The translations under genes were made by a program, and so were the position numbers. The notes beneath the pieces were generated by a model. It saw nothing but the letters and a program-made list of their open reading frames with translations. It was not told where the DNA came from and ran no database searches. This document shows positions 19,257-28,949 of a stretch of DNA of 64,000 nt, piece after piece; the first letter of the stretch is position 1, and every line of letters starts with the position of its first letter. The stretch is taken from positions 2,480,001 through 2,544,000 of the forward strand of contig NZ_BHGK01000001.1 in the NCBI RefSeq assembly GCF_003574295.1, in the 5' to 3' direction. Source of the DNA: Mediterraneibacter butyricigenes (GTDB lineage: Bacteria > Bacillota > Clostridia > Lachnospirales > Lachnospiraceae).

Positions 19257-20414
19257 CTACATTGAATGCTGTGCAAAAGTCACCTCGAAAATCGTTCCCC
19301 CAGTCTTGCCTGATTTGATACAAATACTGCCATCATGTACTCTAACGATTTCACGGACAAAAGCAAGACCTAGCCCTACGCCACCCAGCTCCCGGCTTCT
19401 GGATTTATCCACACGGAAGAATGGCTCGAACACTCTCTCCCTAAGCTCCTTTGGTATTCCGCTTCCCGTATCTTCTACAGACAGATAAACATGCTTGTTT
19501 CTCTGATATGCGGTTACTGTAACCTGTCCGAGCGGATGATTATATTTGATGGCATTCTCAACCAGATTGTATACAAGTCTGTAAATAAGGATATCACTGC
19601 CTATCATAGTGGCATCCTCACATTTTCCAATCAGCTTTATATTCTTTTCCACGGCAAGAGGCTCAAGGTCTGCCAAAACCTCTTCAACAATGGCATCCAA
19701 TATAATTTTATCATCCCTTCCCACCGTTTGAAGCTCACTCATGTCAAGAAGAGTCTTTACCATCCTGTTTAATTTATCATTTTGTTCCGTAACCATTTTT
19801 ATGGTCTGCAAAGTGTCTGCATCATTTCCCGGGTGAGAGGCAGAATTATATAAATCAAGCTGTACCTGCATTAACGCTAATGGAGTACGCAGCTCATGTG
19901 CTGCATTTGCAGTAAACTGTCTCTGTATCTCAAATGCTTCCGACAGACGCTTAAGCATCTTATTATAAGAAATACCCAGCTGGTTCAGTTCCTTAACATT
20001 GTTTTCCTCTATTCTTGAATCAGACAGATTCTGAGCCTGTACCTCTTCAATTTTATCTGAAAACTCCCTGATTGGTCTGAGTGCATGCCCGCTTATAAAA
20101 TAAGTGACGACACCTCCCAAAAGCGCCAGAAAAACCGTGATGATCAGACTGTTTCTTTTATAGTCGGCCTTATTATTGTACACCTGAAACGAAAATTCAT
20201 CCGCAAACTCATCCCACTTATCGTCCGGTATGCTGATATATATTTCATCTGATTTGTTTCCTTTTTCATCCCCCTGGGACTCTACCGCATCCTGCAGAGA
20301 ATCGATGTAATGCACACCATTTTTATAGACAAACATAGTCAGGCAGCCACATATAATAGCAATACACAATGTAGTAATGCACGTAAGTCTCCACTGTAGC
20401 GACATTCTTTTCAT
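19257..20414 (-). CDS. Two-component sensor histidine kinase
   Basis: The 385-residue membrane kinase has an N-terminal membrane helix (about residues 9-30), an extracytoplasmic region of about 75 residues, a second helix (about 90-112), a HAMP linker, the H-box AHELRTPLALMQ, the N-box NLVENAIKYN, and ATP-site motifs DTGSGIP and GGVGLGLAF. It starts at an ATGA overlap with the regulator stop (20411-20414), so it is co-translated with it. It is divergent from the redox module at 21185-23153, which it is a candidate to control. The stimulus is unknown. Confidence 0.92.
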   Translation of the reverse strand: MKRMSLQWRLTCITTLCIAIICGCLTMFVYKNGVHYIDSLQDAVESQGDEKGNKSDEIYISIPDDKWDEFADEFSFQVYNNKADYKRNSLIITVFLALLGGVVTYFISGHALRPIREFSDKIEEVQAQNLSDSRIEENNVKELNQLGISYNKMLKRLSEAFEIQRQFTANAAHELRTPLALMQVQLDLYNSASHPGNDADTLQTIKMVTEQNDKLNRMVKTLLDMSELQTVGRDDKIILDAIVEEVLADLEPLAVEKNIKLIGKCEDATMIGSDILIYRLVYNLVENAIKYNHPLGQVTVTAYQRNKHVYLSVEDTGSGIPKELRERVFEPFFRVDKSRSRELGGVGLGLAFVREIVRVHDGSICIKSGKTGGTIFEVTFAQHSM

Positions 20415-21091
20415 CTGTCAGACTCCTCCCGTATTTTATAGCCTTCACCTACCTTGTTCTGAATGGGATCATATCCCAGCTTCGCTTTAAGCTTTTTTCT
20501 AAGTGAAGACATATGTACCCTGATTGCTCCGCTAAAGCTGTCTGCTGTGGCATCCCACACATGCTCTATCAGCTCCTCCTGACTCACCGGTCTGCCTATA
20601 TTGATAAGTAAATATTCCAAAATACCATTCTCTTTTCTTGTCAGTGGAACCGGCTCTTCCTTTGCATATGCCTCGCGTTTAATCGTATCAAACTTTATTT
20701 CTCCGCATTTAAGACATATATCATTCTGTACAAATTTCCTTCTTGTCAGGCTTCTGATACGTGCCTCAAGCTCCTGCAGATGGAATGGTTTTTCCATGTA
20801 ATCATTTGCTCCTGCATCCAGTCCCTCTACCTTATCAGCAATCTGACCTCTTGCAGATAATATCAAAACCTTAGTTTCATCATTGTATTTTCTAAGCTCC
20901 TTAAGAAGCTCCATGCCATCCATCCCCGGCAGATTCAAATCCAAAACTATCAGATCATAATTCTCCGACAGTATACATTCAAGAGCCTCTTTCCCATCAT
21001 AACAGGTATCCACCTCATAACCGGCAGCATACAGACTCTTTGCAACCATATCACATATTTGTTTCTCATCCTCAACAATTAATAATCTCAA
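20411..21091 (-). CDS. OmpR-family response regulator
   Basis: The 226-residue product has a receiver domain with phospho-acceptor Asp in VLDLNLPGMDG and the switch lysine in EKPFHLQEL, then a winged-helix DNA-binding domain ending NKVGEGYKIREE. I place the start at the TTG at 21091 (minus strand), because the family N-terminus LRLLIVEDE begins there and a GCAGGAGAAC ribosome-binding site precedes it; the frame upstream is open but codes an unrelated leader. Its promoter lies at 21131-21159. It overlaps the kinase gene by four bases. Confidence 0.9.
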   Translation of the reverse strand: MRLLIVEDEKQICDMVAKSLYAAGYEVDTCYDGKEALECILSENYDLIVLDLNLPGMDGMELLKELRKYNDETKVLILSARGQIADKVEGLDAGANDYMEKPFHLQELEARIRSLTRRKFVQNDICLKCGEIKFDTIKREAYAKEEPVPLTRKENGILEYLLINIGRPVSQEELIEHVWDATADSFSGAIRVHMSSLRKKLKAKLGYDPIQNKVGEGYKIREESDR

Positions 21092-21130
21092 AATGTTCTC
21101 CTGCTTCTTAACAATAATTTTACAACCTAT

Positions 21131-21159
21131 ATTGTATAATACCAAAGTCAGCTGGTCAA
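21131..21159 (-). promoter_or_regulatory. Leftward promoter of the two-component operon
   Basis: On the minus strand TTGACC (21159-21154) and TACAAT (21136-21131) are 17 bases apart, giving a transcript with a leader of about 35 bases before the TTG start. Confidence 0.75.
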
Positions 21160-21184
21160 CAATACAACAAAAAGGAGCAACATT

Positions 21185-21328
21185 ATGTTGAAATACCAAA
21201 AAACATGTCAAATCATTCTGCTTATCTTTGGTGTATCCATGATAAGCTATGGTGCAGTCAGAGGTGAGGCGGCTACAGTGCTTGGTAAAGCAATAAAACT
21301 ATGTCTGGAGTGTGTCGGAATTGGATAA
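21185..21328 (+). CDS. CD1871A-type small CXXC-motif membrane protein
   Basis: This 47-residue protein has one hydrophobic helix (CQIILLIFGVSMISYGA) and the C-terminal motif CLECVGIG. It fits the small CD1871A-family CXXC proteins of Clostridia, which have a helix, an RGE motif and a CLECVGIG-like tail. It has a clear AAAGGAG ribosome-binding site and overlaps the start of the polyferredoxin gene by 17 bases, so the two are coupled. The cysteine pair near the membrane suggests a thiol-disulfide relay or a metal-binding role with the downstream polyferredoxin and TlpA protein; that role is inference. Confidence 0.82.
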   Translation: MLKYQKTCQIILLIFGVSMISYGAVRGEAATVLGKAIKLCLECVGIG

Positions 21329-22208
21329 GGAAAAGAAATTACTATCAAGAAAACTGGCAAAAATACGTGGCTGGATACAGGCCGCAGCAACGCTGCTGAC
21401 CAATATTCATATTCCAAATTTATTTAAGGGTAAAATATATCAGGGCAATGCAAAAACAGTATGCGTACCCGGATTAAACTGCTACTCCTGCCCTGCCGCG
21501 ACAGGAGCCTGTCCAATAGGGGCATTTCAGGCGGTTGTCGGATCATCAAAATTTAAGTTTTCATACTACATAACCGGATTTTTTATTTTACTCGGTGTAA
21601 CTCTCGGCAGATTTATATGTGGTTTTTTGTGCCCATTTGGATGGTTTCAGGATTTACTTCATAAAATCCCCGGAAAGAAATTATCCACAGCCAAACTAAA
21701 GCCTCTTAGGTACCTAAAATATGTCATTCTTATTGTTTTCGTTATACTTCTTCCGATGCTTGTAACGAACTCTATAGGAATGGGAGACCCGTTCTTCTGC
21801 AAATATATCTGTCCTCAGGGTGTTTTAGAGGGTGCTATACCGTTATCTATTGGAAATGCTGCTATCCGTTCTGCGCTGGGAAAGCTTTTTTCTTTCAAGT
21901 GTATGATTTTAATTGCAGTGATTGTACTAAGTATCTTATTTTACAGGCCCTTCTGTAAATGGATTTGTCCGCTTGGAGCAATCTACTCATTATTTAATAA
22001 GGTCAGCCTGCTCAAAATCACCGTTGATAGCAGTAAATGTGTCGGATGCGGTCAATGCGCAAAGGCATGTAAGATGGATGTGGATGTGTGTAAGACACCG
22101 GATCACCCCGAGTGCATACGCTGCGGTGCCTGCATAAAGGCCTGTCCGAAGGACGCCATCTGCTACCGGTTTATGGGAAAATCATGTCAAAAAAATGACA
22201 ACAGATAA
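21312..22208 (+). CDS. Membrane 4Fe-4S binding protein (NapH/polyferredoxin type)
   Basis: The 298-residue membrane protein has about five helices. Two loop motifs of the NapH type are visible (CGFLCPFGWFQD and CKWICPLGAIYS), an N-terminal CYSCPAATGACPIG, and a C-terminal dicluster ferredoxin domain (CVGCGQCAKACKMD and CIRCGACIKACPKD). Such proteins move electrons across the membrane to extracytoplasmic partners. The GTG start at 21312 lies inside the end of the small CXXC gene, with CTGGAG just upstream as a possible ribosome-binding site. The TlpA-like lipoprotein downstream is the likely electron acceptor. Confidence 0.88.
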   Translation: MSELDKEKKLLSRKLAKIRGWIQAAATLLTNIHIPNLFKGKIYQGNAKTVCVPGLNCYSCPAATGACPIGAFQAVVGSSKFKFSYYITGFFILLGVTLGRFICGFLCPFGWFQDLLHKIPGKKLSTAKLKPLRYLKYVILIVFVILLPMLVTNSIGMGDPFFCKYICPQGVLEGAIPLSIGNAAIRSALGKLFSFKCMILIAVIVLSILFYRPFCKWICPLGAIYSLFNKVSLLKITVDSSKCVGCGQCAKACKMDVDVCKTPDHPECIRCGACIKACPKDAICYRFMGKSCQKNDNR

Positions 22209-22250
22209 CTATTAAACATTTTACTATTATTTTTAAAGGAGAAATTACTC

Positions 22251-23153
22251 ATGAAAAACAAATTATCATTTATTTCTATTTTTACACTCTGCATAGCATT
22301 ATCACTTACAGCATGCGGCGGAAAGCAAGCTTCCAACACAGAGTCTAAGAACACTCAGACTGAAGCCGGCTCAGAAGCATCCGGCAAATCAGATTCCAGG
22401 CTTGATGATTTATATCAGCAGGAAAATCAGCTTTTTGCAGATCACGCTGATGTGTGGAACAAGGTATTTGGCATGATGAACAAAAGTGACGCCGATTCAA
22501 ACGGAAATTATGCTGATTATCTTGCCGGTACCGTAGAATCAAACAAGAATTCATTCACAGACGATGAGCTTAAAACACTTAATGAGGATATTGAAACCAT
22601 ACGAAAAATCGAGGAACAGATAGCAGAGCTTGAAAACAAAAATACATCATCAGACGATAACAAGAAGGACAGCTCTAAAGCCTCATCTGTATTCAGTGAT
22701 TTTTCCGGTGAGGATTTTGATGGCAATAAGGTTGATGACAGCCTGTTTTCCGGTAATGCAGTAACAGTCGTCAATTTCTGGTTTACCGGCTGCAAACCAT
22801 GTGTTGCTGAATTATCCAAGCTTAACGAATTAAATGATGCTATCAAATCAATGGGCGGAGAAGTTGTTGGCATCAACACTGAGACCTTCGATGGCAATAA
22901 AACAGCTATCAAAGAGGCTGCCTCTGTTCTTGAAAGCCAGGGTGTCAAATATCGTAATCTGTCAATTGACTCCTCTAGTGCTGCCGGTAAATATGCCTCA
23001 GAAATCCTGGCCTTTCCAACAACTATACTTGTTGACAGAAATGGCAATATTGTAGGCGAACCAATGCTCGGCGGAATTGATAACAAGGACAACTATGATG
23101 CCCTTATGAAGCAGATTCAGTCTGTAATTGATGCAGACAGCACAAATAAATAG
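22251..23153 (+). CDS. TlpA-like thioredoxin-fold lipoprotein
   Basis: The 300-residue protein begins with a lipoprotein signal peptide (lipobox LTAC, lipidated C22) followed by a Ser/Asp/Glu-rich linker and a helical spacer (about 50-135). The C-terminal TlpA/AhpC-TSA thioredoxin fold has the redox motif CKPC (C181-C184) and the cis-Pro segment AFPTTILVDRNG. It is therefore a cell-surface thiol-disulfide enzyme, anchored outside the membrane. It ends the operon with the small CXXC protein and the polyferredoxin, and a terminator follows. The substrate is unknown. Confidence 0.9.
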   Translation: MKNKLSFISIFTLCIALSLTACGGKQASNTESKNTQTEAGSEASGKSDSRLDDLYQQENQLFADHADVWNKVFGMMNKSDADSNGNYADYLAGTVESNKNSFTDDELKTLNEDIETIRKIEEQIAELENKNTSSDDNKKDSSKASSVFSDFSGEDFDGNKVDDSLFSGNAVTVVNFWFTGCKPCVAELSKLNELNDAIKSMGGEVVGINTETFDGNKTAIKEAASVLESQGVKYRNLSIDSSSAAGKYASEILAFPTTILVDRNGNIVGEPMLGGIDNKDNYDALMKQIQSVIDADSTNK

Positions 23154-23164
23154 AGGTCTACATA

Positions 23165-23201
23165 TAAAAAGCTCCTGTGCATTGCACAGAGAGCTTTTTT
23201 T
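23165..23201 (+). terminator. Terminator of the redox module
   Basis: AAAAAGCTC-CTGTGC pairs with GCACAG-GAGCTTTTTTT across a short loop, with one extra A. Confidence 0.88.
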
Positions 23202-23725: not shown

Positions 23726-24415
23726 ATGCCAGGTATACTCGTGGTTGAAGATGATGAAAATTTAAATCGTGGAATTACATTTTCACTGAAAAAATCCGGA
23801 TATGAGGTTTTTTCAGCAGAATCAGTGAAAAAAGCGAAAAGAATTGCAAGTGATCATAATGTGGATGTTACCATTTGTGATGTGAATCTTCCGGATGGGA
23901 ATGGACTGGAATTTGTAAGGTGGATGAGATGCAATTATAATACATACATTATTTGTCTTACAGCACTGGATCAGGAGATGGATCAGGTCATGGGATATGA
24001 AGCAGGGGCAGATGATTATATTACAAAGCCGTTTAGTCTTTCGGTACTTCTTTTGAAAATAGAAGCACATTTCCGTCGCAGACAGGAGAAAACGGAAGCC
24101 GGAAAGATGATTTCGGGAGATATCGTATTTATCGCAGGAGAAATGAAAGTCCTGATAAAGAGTCGTGAAATCAGTCTGACAAAAACGGAGTTGAAAATGC
24201 TGACTTTTTTTCTTCAGAATCCGAAACAGATTCTTTCAAAAACACAAATATTGGAAAATGTGTTTGATCTGGAAGGGGATTTTGTGGATGAAAATACAAT
24301 CGCTGTCAATATCAGAAGACTCCGTGAGAAAATCGAAGACAATCCGGCTGCACCGGTCTATATAAAGAATATCAGAGGTCTTGGGTATATATGGAATCAG
24401 GAGGTAAGGCAGTGA
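23726..24415 (+). CDS. OmpR-family response regulator
   Basis: The 229-residue regulator has the receiver Asp in ICDVNLPDGNG, the switch lysine in ITKPFSLSVL, and a C-terminal winged helix ending IKNIRGLGYIW. It starts with ATG after AAAGAGAGGTGCATATGCT. Its stop overlaps the kinase GTG start (GTGA at 24412-24415). It resembles regulators of antimicrobial-peptide-responsive ABC exporters, such as the one encoded at 25834-28949. Confidence 0.93.
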   Translation: MPGILVVEDDENLNRGITFSLKKSGYEVFSAESVKKAKRIASDHNVDVTICDVNLPDGNGLEFVRWMRCNYNTYIICLTALDQEMDQVMGYEAGADDYITKPFSLSVLLLKIEAHFRRRQEKTEAGKMISGDIVFIAGEMKVLIKSREISLTKTELKMLTFFLQNPKQILSKTQILENVFDLEGDFVDENTIAVNIRRLREKIEDNPAAPVYIKNIRGLGYIWNQEVRQ

Positions 24416-25656
24416 CAAAGAGATATCGCAAGAAGATTACAGTAGTGCTCTCCTTGGTATTACCTGTCATATTATTGTTTGCAATATTAAATTGCTTTAC
24501 CACGTATGTGTTTTATGAAGATTATAAATATAAAATGAATCTTATGACAGAGATTGCTGCAAAGGAAGAATTTTCCGGGCTGGATGCTGTTTCGGAATTG
24601 CTTAAGGATAAGGAGATTGAAACCAACGAACAGGGAAGGCGATTATTGGAGCAATATGGATACTGGGGGAATAAAGGGAATGCATTTTATTCGCAATTCC
24701 GGCATCAGGTTATGGTGACCGGTGCTGTAAGTACTGTGATATGCGTGCTTCTTTTGACTTTTTTACTTTATTGGAAGAAAAAAGAAGATGCGTGTCATCA
24801 GAAAATTTTAGACCAGTTGGAAGAAATTCTGATCAGATTCCGTGAAAATAAATTTGATGCTTTACTGAAAACGGAAAATCCAGCAGAACTGGAAAAATTG
24901 AATGACCAGCTTGAAGCAATCGGACATCATATTCAGTTGCTAAAGGAAGAAGCACGGGAAGAAAAAGAGAGCACGAAAGAAATGGTTTCTGATATCTCTC
25001 ACCAGTTAAAGACACCGGTTGCAGCTTTGGATACATGTTTTAGTGTGCTGATGCAGAATGACTTAAGTGCCACAGAACAGGAGGAGTTTCGTATCCGTTG
25101 TCGGAGTGCTCTGGATGGACTGGAGACATTATTGCAGTCGCTTCTTGAAATATCCAAGATGGAAACTGGACTGATTCAGATTAATAAGAAAAAACTTCCG
25201 CTTATGGATACTGTCATATCTGCTGTGAACTGTACTTATCCAAAAGCGGATGAGAAAGAAATTGAATTCGTTTTTGACTATGCAAAAGAGCTGGAAACAT
25301 GCATGGTTATGCAGGATAAAAGATGGCTTGGTGAAGCTGTGATCAACGTTCTGGATAATGCAATCAAGTACAGCCTGGATGGTTCAAAAATATTTATCCG
25401 GTTACAAAAAAGAAACGATCTTGTAAGAATGGAAATTGAGGATCAGGGAATTGGTATTCCGCAGAATGAGTATCACAAAATTTTTCAACGATTTTACAGA
25501 GGAAGTTCCAAGGAGGTCATGGAAAAGAGTGGTACAGGAATCGGACTTTTTCTATCGAGAGAAATTATCGAAAAACACGGAGGTACAATCATGGTAACCT
25601 CCGGCAAAAAGAAAAAAGGAAGCACGTTTGTGATTCAATTACCATATGTTGGTTAA
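24412..25656 (+). CDS. Two-component sensor histidine kinase
   Basis: The 414-residue kinase has two membrane helices (about 11-36 and 98-118) around an extracytoplasmic loop of roughly 60 residues, the H-box SDISHQLKTPVAAL, the N-box NVLDNAIKYS, and ATP motifs EDQGIGIP and GTGIGLFLS. I choose the GTG at 24412 because a perfect AGGAGGTAAGG site stands just before it; an ATG at 24391 in the same frame lies too early. A terminator follows, separating it from the ABC genes. Confidence 0.9.
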   Translation: MTKRYRKKITVVLSLVLPVILLFAILNCFTTYVFYEDYKYKMNLMTEIAAKEEFSGLDAVSELLKDKEIETNEQGRRLLEQYGYWGNKGNAFYSQFRHQVMVTGAVSTVICVLLLTFLLYWKKKEDACHQKILDQLEEILIRFRENKFDALLKTENPAELEKLNDQLEAIGHHIQLLKEEAREEKESTKEMVSDISHQLKTPVAALDTCFSVLMQNDLSATEQEEFRIRCRSALDGLETLLQSLLEISKMETGLIQINKKKLPLMDTVISAVNCTYPKADEKEIEFVFDYAKELETCMVMQDKRWLGEAVINVLDNAIKYSLDGSKIFIRLQKRNDLVRMEIEDQGIGIPQNEYHKIFQRFYRGSSKEVMEKSGTGIGLFLSREIIEKHGGTIMVTSGKKKKGSTFVIQLPYVG

Positions 25657-25666
25657 ATTTTAAGTG

Positions 25667-25707
25667 GGCAGAAATCTTACAATTCTGTAAGACTTCTGCT
25701 CGTTTTT
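25667..25707 (+). terminator. Terminator between kinase and ABC exporter
   Basis: GCAGAAATCTTAC and GTAAGACTTCTGC pair (one mismatch) around AATTCT, and are followed by TCGTTTTTT. Confidence 0.85.
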
Positions 25708-25711
25708 TGAA

Positions 25712-25740
25712 AGTGAAATGAAAGATTGTCCTGATACAAT
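25712..25740 (+). promoter_or_regulatory. Probable activated promoter of the ABC exporter
   Basis: TACAAT lies at 25735-25740, but the position 17 bases upstream (AGTGAA) is a poor -35. The stretch before it, AAAGTGAAATGAAAG, contains a near direct repeat. A weak -35 with repeats is the usual look of a promoter activated by an OmpR-type regulator, here probably the product of the gene at 23726. This is inferred. Confidence 0.4.
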
Positions 25741-25833
25741 TTGGATGTAGGTTGAAAAATGACCAAATATATAAACAGGCAAAGAAAGCGTGCTGAAAAG
25801 GTACGCTTTACAGAATTGAAAAGGAGGCAACAC

Positions 25834-26508
25834 ATGAGTGTGATATTAGAAACCAGGCAGCTTTGTAAGTTTTATGGCGCAGGTGAGAATCAGGTCAAAG
25901 CGGTCAATCAGGTGGACATTCAGATTGAGCAGGGAGAATTTGTCGCAATTGTCGGAAAGTCAGGTTCCGGTAAAAGTACATTACTTCATATGCTTGGAGG
26001 GCTTGACACCCCTACAAAAGGCAGTGTTACTTTAGCCGGGAAAGATTTATACAGGATGAAGGAAGATGCCCTTGCTGTTTTCCGCAGAAGAAAAATCGGA
26101 TTTGTTTTTCAGGCATTTAATCTGGTTTCATCTGTTAATGTCTGGGAAAATATTGTACTGCCACTGGGGCTGGACGGAAGAAAAGTGGATGAAGCGTATG
26201 TAAATGATATTATTGCAACTCTGGGGATTGAAAACCGGATTTATAATCTGCCAAATCAGTTATCCGGAGGACAGCAGCAGAGAGTAGCAATTGCAAGAGC
26301 ACTGGTGAATCGTCCGGAAATTATATTTGCAGATGAGCCGACAGGAAATCTTGATTCCAAGACCAGTGATGAGGTAATCGCCCTGCTTAAGATGACAGCA
26401 AAAAAATATGGACAGACAATTGTAATGATTACCCATGATGACGAAATTGCACAGGTCGCTGACCGTATTCTGGTGATTGAGGACGGACAGGTGGTGGATT
26501 TCAGATGA
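25834..26508 (+). CDS. ABC transporter ATP-binding protein (MacB/LolD type)
   Basis: The 224-residue ATPase has Walker A GKSGSGKSTLL, signature LSGGQQQRVAIARAL, Walker B FADEPTGNLDS and the H-loop ITHDD. The start at 25834 follows AAAAGGAGGCAACAC; the frame is open upstream but without a better site. It overlaps the permease by four bases (ATGA). It powers the FtsX-type permease, a mechanotransmission exporter family often used against antimicrobial peptides. Confidence 0.95.
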   Translation: MSVILETRQLCKFYGAGENQVKAVNQVDIQIEQGEFVAIVGKSGSGKSTLLHMLGGLDTPTKGSVTLAGKDLYRMKEDALAVFRRRKIGFVFQAFNLVSSVNVWENIVLPLGLDGRKVDEAYVNDIIATLGIENRIYNLPNQLSGGQQQRVAIARALVNRPEIIFADEPTGNLDSKTSDEVIALLKMTAKKYGQTIVMITHDDEIAQVADRILVIEDGQVVDFR

Positions 26509-28949
26509 AGACAATAAGCAGGATTGCATATAGCAATGACAAAAAGAACAAGACAAGAAGTATACTGATTATGATGGCAATCTGTCTGACTACGATTCTG
26601 CTTGTGATTATCAGTACTGTGGGAAATGGAATGATCCGTTTGCAGAAAAGTCAGGCGGCAGGCTCATATGGAAGCAATTATGGTCTGTTTGTCGCAGCAG
26701 ATGCCTCGCAGTTAAAGGAAGTGGAACGCAGAGCTGAGATATCTGATATCGGCATCATGTGTACGGAGGGCATCCTGAAAGGAAATGAAAATGGCGGCTT
26801 TGTCAGTGCGGATGAAACGGTCAGGAAAATGCTTCCCTATAATCAGGAATATGTGTTGAAGGAAGGTACCTATCCGGAAAAGGCGCAGGAAATTGCTGCA
26901 GGAAGAGCATTTTTTCGTGCAATGGGGTATGGTGATGTAAAGATCGGAGATACGGTTACACTGGATTACCGCGCAGGGATGCAGTCAGAATATAAGCCGG
27001 AAGAATTTGTTGTCAGCGGAATCCTATATGATCGGGATGAGTATACCATCGAGGCATCTTATGTTGCTTTCGGGTCACAGGAGTTTTATGATGAGCACGT
27101 CGCAGAGAATGACAGACAGTATAATATTTATTTTACTTTAAATGATTCTGCAAATGTATCTATGAATAATATTGAACCGGTTATAAAGCAGATTGCAGCA
27201 GCTTGTGGAATCGAAGAAAAAAACGTTATAGTCAATGATCTCTATTTGCAATGGGTCTTGCAGCCGAGTTATGAAACGATTGCGGTATGCGGGGTTTTGA
27301 TTCTTGCAATTGTACTTTTCTCTGTTGTGGTCATTTATAATATTTTTCAGGTCGGTATTGCCAACAAGATACAGGAGTATGGAAAAATCAAGGCTCTGGG
27401 AGCGACAAAAAAGCAGATGAAACAACTGATCTTCAGAGAGGGCATTTTTTTGACATTTTTTTCAATACCAGTTGGATTGCTTTTTGGCTTTCTGATTGCA
27501 AAATGCGGTTTTAACTGGCTGGTAGAACAGGGGAACCTTGTATCAACCGGAACTGGCTCTATGGGAGTTCAAAATCAGCAGGTGCCTCTGTTTTCCCTGC
27601 CTGTTATGCTTCTCTGTATTTTCGTATCATTTCTTACCGTTGCTTTGGCACTGCGTAAACCAATGAAAATTGTTTCACGGATTTCACCTATCGAAGCAAC
27701 ACGGTATTTAGAAAATGCAGAAACACACAAAAAAGGAAAACGAAATGGCAGAAAAAATGTCACCGTGTTTTCTATGGCAATGGCAAATATAACGGGTAAT
27801 CCAAAAAGAACCATTGGTACCATCCTCACACTGGGGCTTTCCTGCGCATTGTTTGTGATTATCTCTAATTATGTAGGAAATATTGACACGGAGCATGAAG
27901 CACGTCTTTCCGTTAATCATGGACAATTTGAACTGCAGCTTGACTATTCTGCTGAGTACGATGAAAGATATCCGGAGAATAATCTGGATACGATTCTGAC
28001 GGATAATCCATTGAATGATTCGCTGATTGAAGAAATCAAAAGCATTCCGGGCGTGACAGATGTCATGACGAGAGAGATTGTCTCTGTAAATCTGAACGGA
28101 ACAAGATTTCCGGCTGCTATTGTGAGTAAAAATGATTTTGATTTTATGCGCCAGGACGGGGATATTGGCTCTATGGACTATGATCAGGCGGTAAAGAATG
28201 GTGAAATTTTCTTTGGTTGGTCGATGTGGATGGAACAAGATGGATATGCTCCGGGTGAATCCATTGCATTTGACTTTGAGAATGGAAGTGGAACCTATAC
28301 CTATCAGGGAAAGATTGCGGGATCCTTTGTAAGCGCGGACACTTATCTTGTCATTCCGGAAGGTGTATACCGTTCCATGAATCCGAGGGGAACAGCCTAT
28401 GGATATCTGTGGGTGGACTGTGATAAAAAAGATGTGGCATCTGTGGAACAGAGTCTGAATACTTTGATTTCTAATACTTCGCATATAAAAATGGATACCT
28501 ATCATGCACAGTTACAATCTGCAGAATTCGCAGCCCGCATGATGAAGCTCGGCTGTTATCTGTTTATGGCGGTTGTGGGACTCATCGGTTTTATGAATAT
28601 GGCAAACACCATGATCATGAATATTACGACAAAAAAGCAGGAATATGGTGTATTACAGGCTGTGGGTATGACAAATAAACAATTAAATTTATGTCTGCAG
28701 TTACAGGGACTGATTTTTACGGTTGGCACCATATGCGTAGCTTTGATCATTGGTCTGCCGCTCGGCTATACACTTTTTTCCTATGCAAAACATAATGGAA
28801 TATTTGGAATGAATATCTATCATGTTCCAATCATACCAATTCTTATTATGATTCTTTTGGTCGGTCTGTTGCAGATTGTACTTTCCTGCGTTTTAAGCAG
28901 TAATCTGAAAAAGGAAACGCTGGTTGAAAGAATAAGGTATCAGGGATAG
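26505..28949 (+). CDS. FtsX-type ABC transporter permease
   Basis: This 814-residue membrane protein has one N-terminal helix (about 20-42), a large extracytoplasmic domain, a first FtsX domain of three helices (about 255-390), a second helix near 435, another extracytoplasmic domain, and a C-terminal FtsX domain of three helices (about 680-805). The duplicated architecture is typical of bacterial exporters paired with a single ATPase of the SalX/MacB type. Together with the two-component system upstream it probably gives resistance to a peptide antibiotic or bacteriocin; the ligand is unknown. Confidence 0.92.
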   Translation: MKTISRIAYSNDKKNKTRSILIMMAICLTTILLVIISTVGNGMIRLQKSQAAGSYGSNYGLFVAADASQLKEVERRAEISDIGIMCTEGILKGNENGGFVSADETVRKMLPYNQEYVLKEGTYPEKAQEIAAGRAFFRAMGYGDVKIGDTVTLDYRAGMQSEYKPEEFVVSGILYDRDEYTIEASYVAFGSQEFYDEHVAENDRQYNIYFTLNDSANVSMNNIEPVIKQIAAACGIEEKNVIVNDLYLQWVLQPSYETIAVCGVLILAIVLFSVVVIYNIFQVGIANKIQEYGKIKALGATKKQMKQLIFREGIFLTFFSIPVGLLFGFLIAKCGFNWLVEQGNLVSTGTGSMGVQNQQVPLFSLPVMLLCIFVSFLTVALALRKPMKIVSRISPIEATRYLENAETHKKGKRNGRKNVTVFSMAMANITGNPKRTIGTILTLGLSCALFVIISNYVGNIDTEHEARLSVNHGQFELQLDYSAEYDERYPENNLDTILTDNPLNDSLIEEIKSIPGVTDVMTREIVSVNLNGTRFPAAIVSKNDFDFMRQDGDIGSMDYDQAVKNGEIFFGWSMWMEQDGYAPGESIAFDFENGSGTYTYQGKIAGSFVSADTYLVIPEGVYRSMNPRGTAYGYLWVDCDKKDVASVEQSLNTLISNTSHIKMDTYHAQLQSAEFAARMMKLGCYLFMAVVGLIGFMNMANTMIMNITTKKQEYGVLQAVGMTNKQLNLCLQLQGLIFTVGTICVALIIGLPLGYTLFSYAKHNGIFGMNIYHVPIIPILIMILLVGLLQIVLSCVLSSNLKKETLVERIRYQG

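Follow-up and report, generated by a model that had tools for sequence, protein, structure and literature searches.

To our knowledge, all well-known routes that supply electrons to extracytoplasmic thioredoxin-like proteins, namely DsbD, CcdA and ScsB, operate by cysteine exchange fed by cytoplasmic thioredoxin. ResA and StoA are reduced through CcdA in known systems. Etrx is also reduced through CcdA, as in CcdA–Etrx–MsrAB2 of Streptococcus pneumoniae and ModRS–CcdA–eTrx–MsrAB of Fusobacterium nucleatum (PMC3914529, PMC12288474). Electrons are moved across the membrane by CX3CP membrane modules in NapH, NosR, RdhC/PceC and their flavinylated relatives, and NapH-like proteins feeding extracytoplasmic acceptors have been described, mostly with FMN domains (PMC8238504, PMC5928378). 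Here we analyzed a 64,000-nucleotide stretch of the Mediterraneibacter butyricigenes genome (hereafter the window; contig NZ_BHGK01000001.1, positions 2,480,001 to 2,544,000), in which positions 19257–23201 hold genes for a CXXC microprotein (CX), a NapH-like membrane polyferredoxin (PF) and a TlpA-type lipoprotein (TlpA), next to a divergent two-component system. We consider it likely that this module is a membrane reductase for the surface thioredoxin-like protein. An earlier sequence-only reading of the locus had already proposed that electrons pass through Fe–S clusters to a surface thioredoxin fold; this proposal is now backed by two natural gene fusions and by the replacement pattern of CcdA.

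As in the CcdA–Etrx systems, a (lipo)protein with a thioredoxin fold at the cell surface would receive electrons from the cytoplasm through a membrane part, and the F. nucleatum system is likewise tied to a two-component system (PMC3914529, PMC12288474). However, the membrane part in those systems is the unrelated protein CcdA, whereas here it is a polyferredoxin together with CX. In contrast to CcdA–Etrx–MsrAB, no Msr gene was present among the recurrent neighbors of the module, Msr genes elsewhere in the genomes not having been searched. The resemblance to NapH and NosR lies in the CX3CP motifs and the C-terminal 4Fe-4S ferredoxin domains of PF. Unlike NapH-like systems, PF carries a third CX3CP, as well as CxPGxNCYSCP...CPIG as an extra invariant motif, and it scores under the NapH cut-offs; the module lacks an FMN domain, and PF has a predicted thiol acceptor in TlpA and a near-obligate partner in CX. 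No FMN-binding Pfam match was found in the three proteins, nor among the frequent families of 50 operon neighbors. Ferredoxin:thioredoxin reductase, in which an Fe–S cluster serves as one-electron donor to a disulfide, is alike in principle, but it is soluble and cytoplasmic, unlike PF and CX, and its catalytic domain has no Pfam match in the module proteins. A three-gene "4Fe-4S / TlpA / CxxC" operon of gut Clostridia has been reported to predict immune-related adverse events in melanoma patients (bioRxiv 2025.11.06.686285, PMC12637426). It comprises the same three genes, and the preprint offers no mechanism. The sequence-only reading knew of no characterised system of precisely this composition in Gram-positives; the operon itself already appears in this 2025 preprint. 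The CcdA replacement, the fusions, the cysteine map and the two-component cassette are new in the present analysis.

The distribution of TlpA was surveyed across the family to which the window belongs, with each of 200 genera represented by a single genome. TlpA-type proteins occur in 124 of them, PF (scored present at E < 1e-60) in 78, and the CcdA/DsbD transmembrane domain (PF02683) in 59. TlpA is found in 119 of the 124 genomes with PF or CcdA versus 5 of the 76 with neither (Fisher p 1.5e-41); the TlpA-positive genomes comprise 63 with PF only, 43 with CcdA only, 13 with both and 5 with neither. Thirteen genomes hold both PF and CcdA, against about 23 expected (p 0.0015). In many CcdA genomes, TlpA adjoins CcdA or shares its open frame, and neither the window's genome nor the module proteins gave a DsbD_TM (PF02683) match. 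TlpA thus appears to depend on having either PF with CX or CcdA as its partner in the membrane. We infer that PF with CX substitutes for CcdA/DsbD as the putative membrane reductant of TlpA.

Furthermore, PF and TlpA are naturally fused through a transmembrane helix in two genomes, G194 and G160. Fusions of this kind are located at L261:2423-3853 and L141:3860-5539. No natural fusion of CX to PF was found. Given a single membrane crossing between the ferredoxin and thioredoxin domains, the two are predicted to lie on opposite sides of the membrane, and the existence of such chains hints directly at PF serving TlpA. In G160, CX lies directly 5' of the fusion, preceded by a separate TlpA. The upstream CX of L261 has two additional membrane segments.

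CX was detected in 77 of the 200 family genomes, and all 77 carry PF. The exception among the PF genomes is G194, in which one contig ends in CX broken after ...KASKIC and another starts inside PF; this genome probably also had CX. PF adjoins CX in 79 of 82 CX loci from other genera and lies within about 2.2 kb in the remaining three, and TlpA is found at most 4 kb from CX in 71 of the 82. When PF was the anchor instead, in another genome collection that shares some genomes with the CX-anchored set, CX was found in 79/80 loci and TlpA in 71/80. The only PF-anchored locus without an intact CX (L241) retains PF and TlpA; between these intact genes, CX has shrunk to a short decayed remnant (MKKSIINNARILLIAASVVLITI, L241:4912-4985). 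In a sample of 398 genomes from the phylum, 54 carry CX, nearly always with PF beside it. The association of CX with PF is therefore beyond chance, and the survey by which the sequence-only reading proposed to check itself, absence of co-occurrence being a result it named as refuting, returned essentially complete co-occurrence of CX and PF in other genomes. The commonest gene order is TlpA–CX–PF, the window has CX–PF–TlpA, and PF–kinase–CX–TlpA is also seen. The module is also present on a megaplasmid of Peptoclostridium acidaminophilum, where an opposite-strand MFS transporter gene (L031:6423-7646) splits TlpA from CX–PF. Neither a conserved fourth operon gene nor a substrate gene recurs beside the module, as judged from neighbor clusters and Pfam in 82 loci and 50 operon neighbors.

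The layout given by the sequence-only reading, a 47-residue CXXC protein overlapping a NapH-like polyferredoxin and followed by a TlpA lipoprotein, agrees with our coordinates and profile matches, and its coordinates for all elements are correct in the window. CX (21185..21328, plus strand) is a 47-residue protein of the CD1871A family of CXXC proteins (NCBIfam NF040920; 65.3 bits, 3.2e-18, curated cut-off 32 bits), a named yet uncharacterised family, for whose name a literature search yielded nothing on function; a PDB search gave no relative of CX. As judged from hydropathy and charge, the N-terminus of CX is positively charged and is followed by a single hydrophobic segment; the CxECxGxG at the other end is predicted to be extracytoplasmic, and the chain ends in KLCLECVGIG. 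Residues G23, K35, C40, E42, C43, G45 and G47 are invariant in 29 sequences. In distant forms (L171-L180), CLSC or CASC replaces CLEC, and some fall under the family cut-off with a polyferredoxin still adjacent, so the NF040920 model probably misses family members.

PF (21312..22208, plus strand) starts at GTG 21312 or TTG 21321, so that 17 or 8 nt, respectively, are shared with CX. It scores above the Pfam gathering thresholds for Fer4_5 and Fer4, but far under the cut-offs of the NapH/MauN models (TIGR02163, 66.8 of 213 bits; PRK09477, 51.5 of 234 bits). Numbered from TTG 21321, its 18 invariant cysteines comprise C48, C54, C57 and C64; C100 and C104; C160 and C164; C212 and C216; and eight in two 4Fe-4S ferredoxin motifs. 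The AlphaFold2 model has a pLDDT of 88 and a pTM of 0.86; PDB matches were restricted to the ferredoxin domain, with no solved relative of the membrane core. Positive charge is found mostly at the N-terminus, in loop 100-130 and in the C-terminal part, and less in loops 40-80 and 152-190, which suggests that the chain crosses the membrane four times and has its two termini in the cytoplasm. This predicted topology and charge bias suggest that C48-64 and C160/164 lie outside, whereas C100/104, C212/216 and the ferredoxin clusters lie inside.

TlpA (22251..23153, plus strand) is a TlpA/ResA-type thiol-disulfide oxidoreductase, as judged from its export signal, CxxC motif and redoxin/AhpC-TSA fold, for which it exceeds the Pfam gathering scores (AhpC-TSA/Redoxin). 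It scores 55.1 bits against the model of ResA proper (PRK03147), under the cut-off of 170 bits. The lipobox is LTAC and the active site CKPC, with lipobox C22, C181 and C184 invariant. The nearest solved folds are ResA, StoA, Etrx2 and CcmG, ResA being the closest. Before the thioredoxin fold lies a helical domain of ~90 residues (residues ~43-131; window 22377-22643), which has no match in Pfam or NCBIfam and is present in most TlpA proteins of the lineage with the two-component system. A like helical domain is located on the C-terminal side of the thioredoxin fold in Agathobaculum desmolans (L205:1846-2709), so this domain is a separate module. A terminator-like hairpin (23175..23189, plus strand) follows the operon.

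These features enable us to propose a putative model. Low-potential electrons from the cytoplasm, with ferredoxin as their probable donor, would enter PF at its two 4Fe-4S ferredoxin clusters. The electrons would then cross the membrane via the CX3CP motifs of PF to the outer-face cysteines C48, C54, C57, C64, C160 and C164. CX, anchored beside PF with its CxEC outside, might act as a dithiol/disulfide relay or as a ligand donor for an outer-face cluster. The final acceptor would be the active-site disulfide of TlpA, which in turn would keep surface proteins reduced. The module would in this way do the work of CcdA/DsbD by one-electron Fe–S chemistry rather than by thiol exchange. Donor, route, role of CX and direction of electron flow are all deduced rather than observed, and our confidence in the exact role of CX is far below that in the overall reading. 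In a more specific form, PF and CX would make up a membrane ferredoxin:thioredoxin reductase in which CX completes the outer-face redox site, either as a disulfide or with two of the four ligands of a cluster shared with C160/C164 of PF. This would be a second natural solution for supplying reductant to extracytoplasmic thioredoxins, one that took the place of CcdA in many of the gut anaerobes; we hold it as a possibility, less likely than not.

Electrons could instead flow inward, PF and CX oxidizing TlpA as DsbB does DsbA and promoting disulfide formation. The chain of cysteines would by itself allow either direction, but electron flow from thiols to ferredoxin is energetically uphill, the nearest folds of TlpA are reductants, and in genomes with CcdA the partner of TlpA is a reductive one, frequently encoded next to it or within one reading frame. 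Because the alternating partner CcdA is reductive and the opposite flow is uphill, the outward direction is favored, and we regard oxidation of TlpA as very improbable. The donor might also be a quinol, with PF acting as a NapH-type quinol dehydrogenase that feeds an extracytoplasmic respiratory reductase and TlpA as a mere accessory. The C-terminal half of PF matches NapH models, and flavinylated NapH-like systems do supply respiratory enzymes; however, this account, which we rate as quite unlikely, fits poorly with the score of PF far under the NapH cut-off, the lack of an FMN-binding domain in the three genes, operons without a conserved fourth gene and the natural TlpA–PF fusions. Moreover, menaquinone synthesis is mostly absent: of the 78 PF genomes, just 2 have a menD match above cut-off, and PF02621 (MqnA-type) gave weak matches only in the window's family, which makes a quinol donor unlikely; a ferredoxin-type donor appears the likelier.

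TlpA and ResA relatives act in cytochrome and copper assembly, which lends some weight to the view that the target of the module is a metal site or a metal, such as copper or heme, which it would mature or reduce in the way known for TlpA/Sco, ResA or CcoG in other systems. The kinase and regulator of the window resemble CopS/CztS and CopR, under cut-off, and a metal-binding P-type ATPase-like protein is encoded near 4 of the 82 loci. Yet among the neighbor clusters examined, genes for cytochromes, copper enzymes or Sco do not recur next to the module, and the module is broadly present in fermentative gut anaerobes; a role in metal handling is hence unlikely in our view. A further alternative keeps the whole reductive pathway but makes CX a non-redox assembly or docking subunit of PF. 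In its favor, PF and TlpA persist at the locus where CX has decayed (L241), and CX nearly always ends in GIG or GLG, like a packing motif; on the other hand, both CX cysteines are invariant in the family set and CxxC is retained in divergent forms, e.g., CLSC and CASC. We consider a purely structural CX possible but doubtful.

Several points weigh against reduction of TlpA by PF and CX. The surveyed genomes are related, so the p-values are too small, although the pattern is nonetheless large; both systems occur in 13 genomes and hence are not strictly exclusive. The predicted topology depends on the fusions and the charge bias. Published NosR data give only eight Fe per molecule, which disfavors additional clusters in the CX3CP motifs, and the role of these motifs is unsettled in the literature. 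A literature search, which lacked most subscription journals, found no experimental, biochemical or expression study of CX, PF or the pathway.

On the minus strand lie the genes of a sensor histidine kinase with a short ectodomain (19257..20414; HAMP, HisKA and HATPase_c in Pfam) and an OmpR-type response regulator with a TTG start (20411..21091; Response_reg and Trans_reg_C), whose orthologues occupy the same position in relatives. A longer open reading frame extending the regulator to 21211 was judged an extension, and the TTG start is preferred. The shared promoter region expected from the sequence-only reading was found as the 93 bp between the divergent regulator and CX (21092-21184). The two-component link noted there exists in the window, but it is a feature of one lineage of the module and not of the module in general. 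Kinase orthologues in the same place in Bacillota, Coriobacteriia and a Spirochaetales metagenome-assembled genome (MAG) score 265-818 bits versus 72 for the window's other kinase. On the PF tree, the divergent pair falls mainly within a single region (34/155 rows; 4 changes versus 31 in shuffles), and its hosts include Blautia, Coprococcus, Christensenella, Collinsella, Atopobium, Peptoniphilus and the Spirochaetales MAG. The orthology, the clustering and the diversity of hosts together suggest that this form was transferred as one five-gene cassette. A cysteine in the first membrane helix of the kinase (window 20343-20351) is kept in most, not all, orthologous kinases, and the ectodomain of the window's kinase has no cysteines.

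An 11-bp direct repeat near the -10 box is typical of OmpR-type operators. Such an operator-like repeat, CTTAACA-N4-TTTTACA (21107..21124, plus strand), lies just 5' of TATAAT (21135..21140, plus strand), the probable -10 box of the CX–PF–TlpA operon, and in close relatives TATTGTATAAT is kept shortly 3' of the repeat. The repeat is conserved upstream of CX in two-component loci, the motif being found in 27 of 36 such loci versus 24 of 193 others. Through this putative operator, the kinase and regulator of the window's lineage probably switch on the operon. The window's genome has one perfect site with its -10, the module's own, and two weak sites; as candidates for a wider regulon these were set aside, the better of the weak ones lying between radical SAM-like and FtsX-type genes, both on the opposite strand. 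Downstream, at window positions 23726-28949, a second two-component system precedes genes for an ABC ATPase and a permease of the FtsX/MacB type; this set resembles antimicrobial-peptide resistance modules and is outside the redox module.

In summary, the module is real, widespread in gut anaerobes and functionally coherent, and we read it with good confidence as a system for reducing thiols across the membrane that combines a NapH-like Fe–S protein with a microprotein. Such an Fe–S-fed route would suit ferredoxin-rich anaerobes, would explain how those with surface TlpA but without CcdA manage, and would assign a function to a named, uncharacterised microprotein family. With the operon linked to immune-therapy side effects in the preprint above, its mechanism would also be practically useful.

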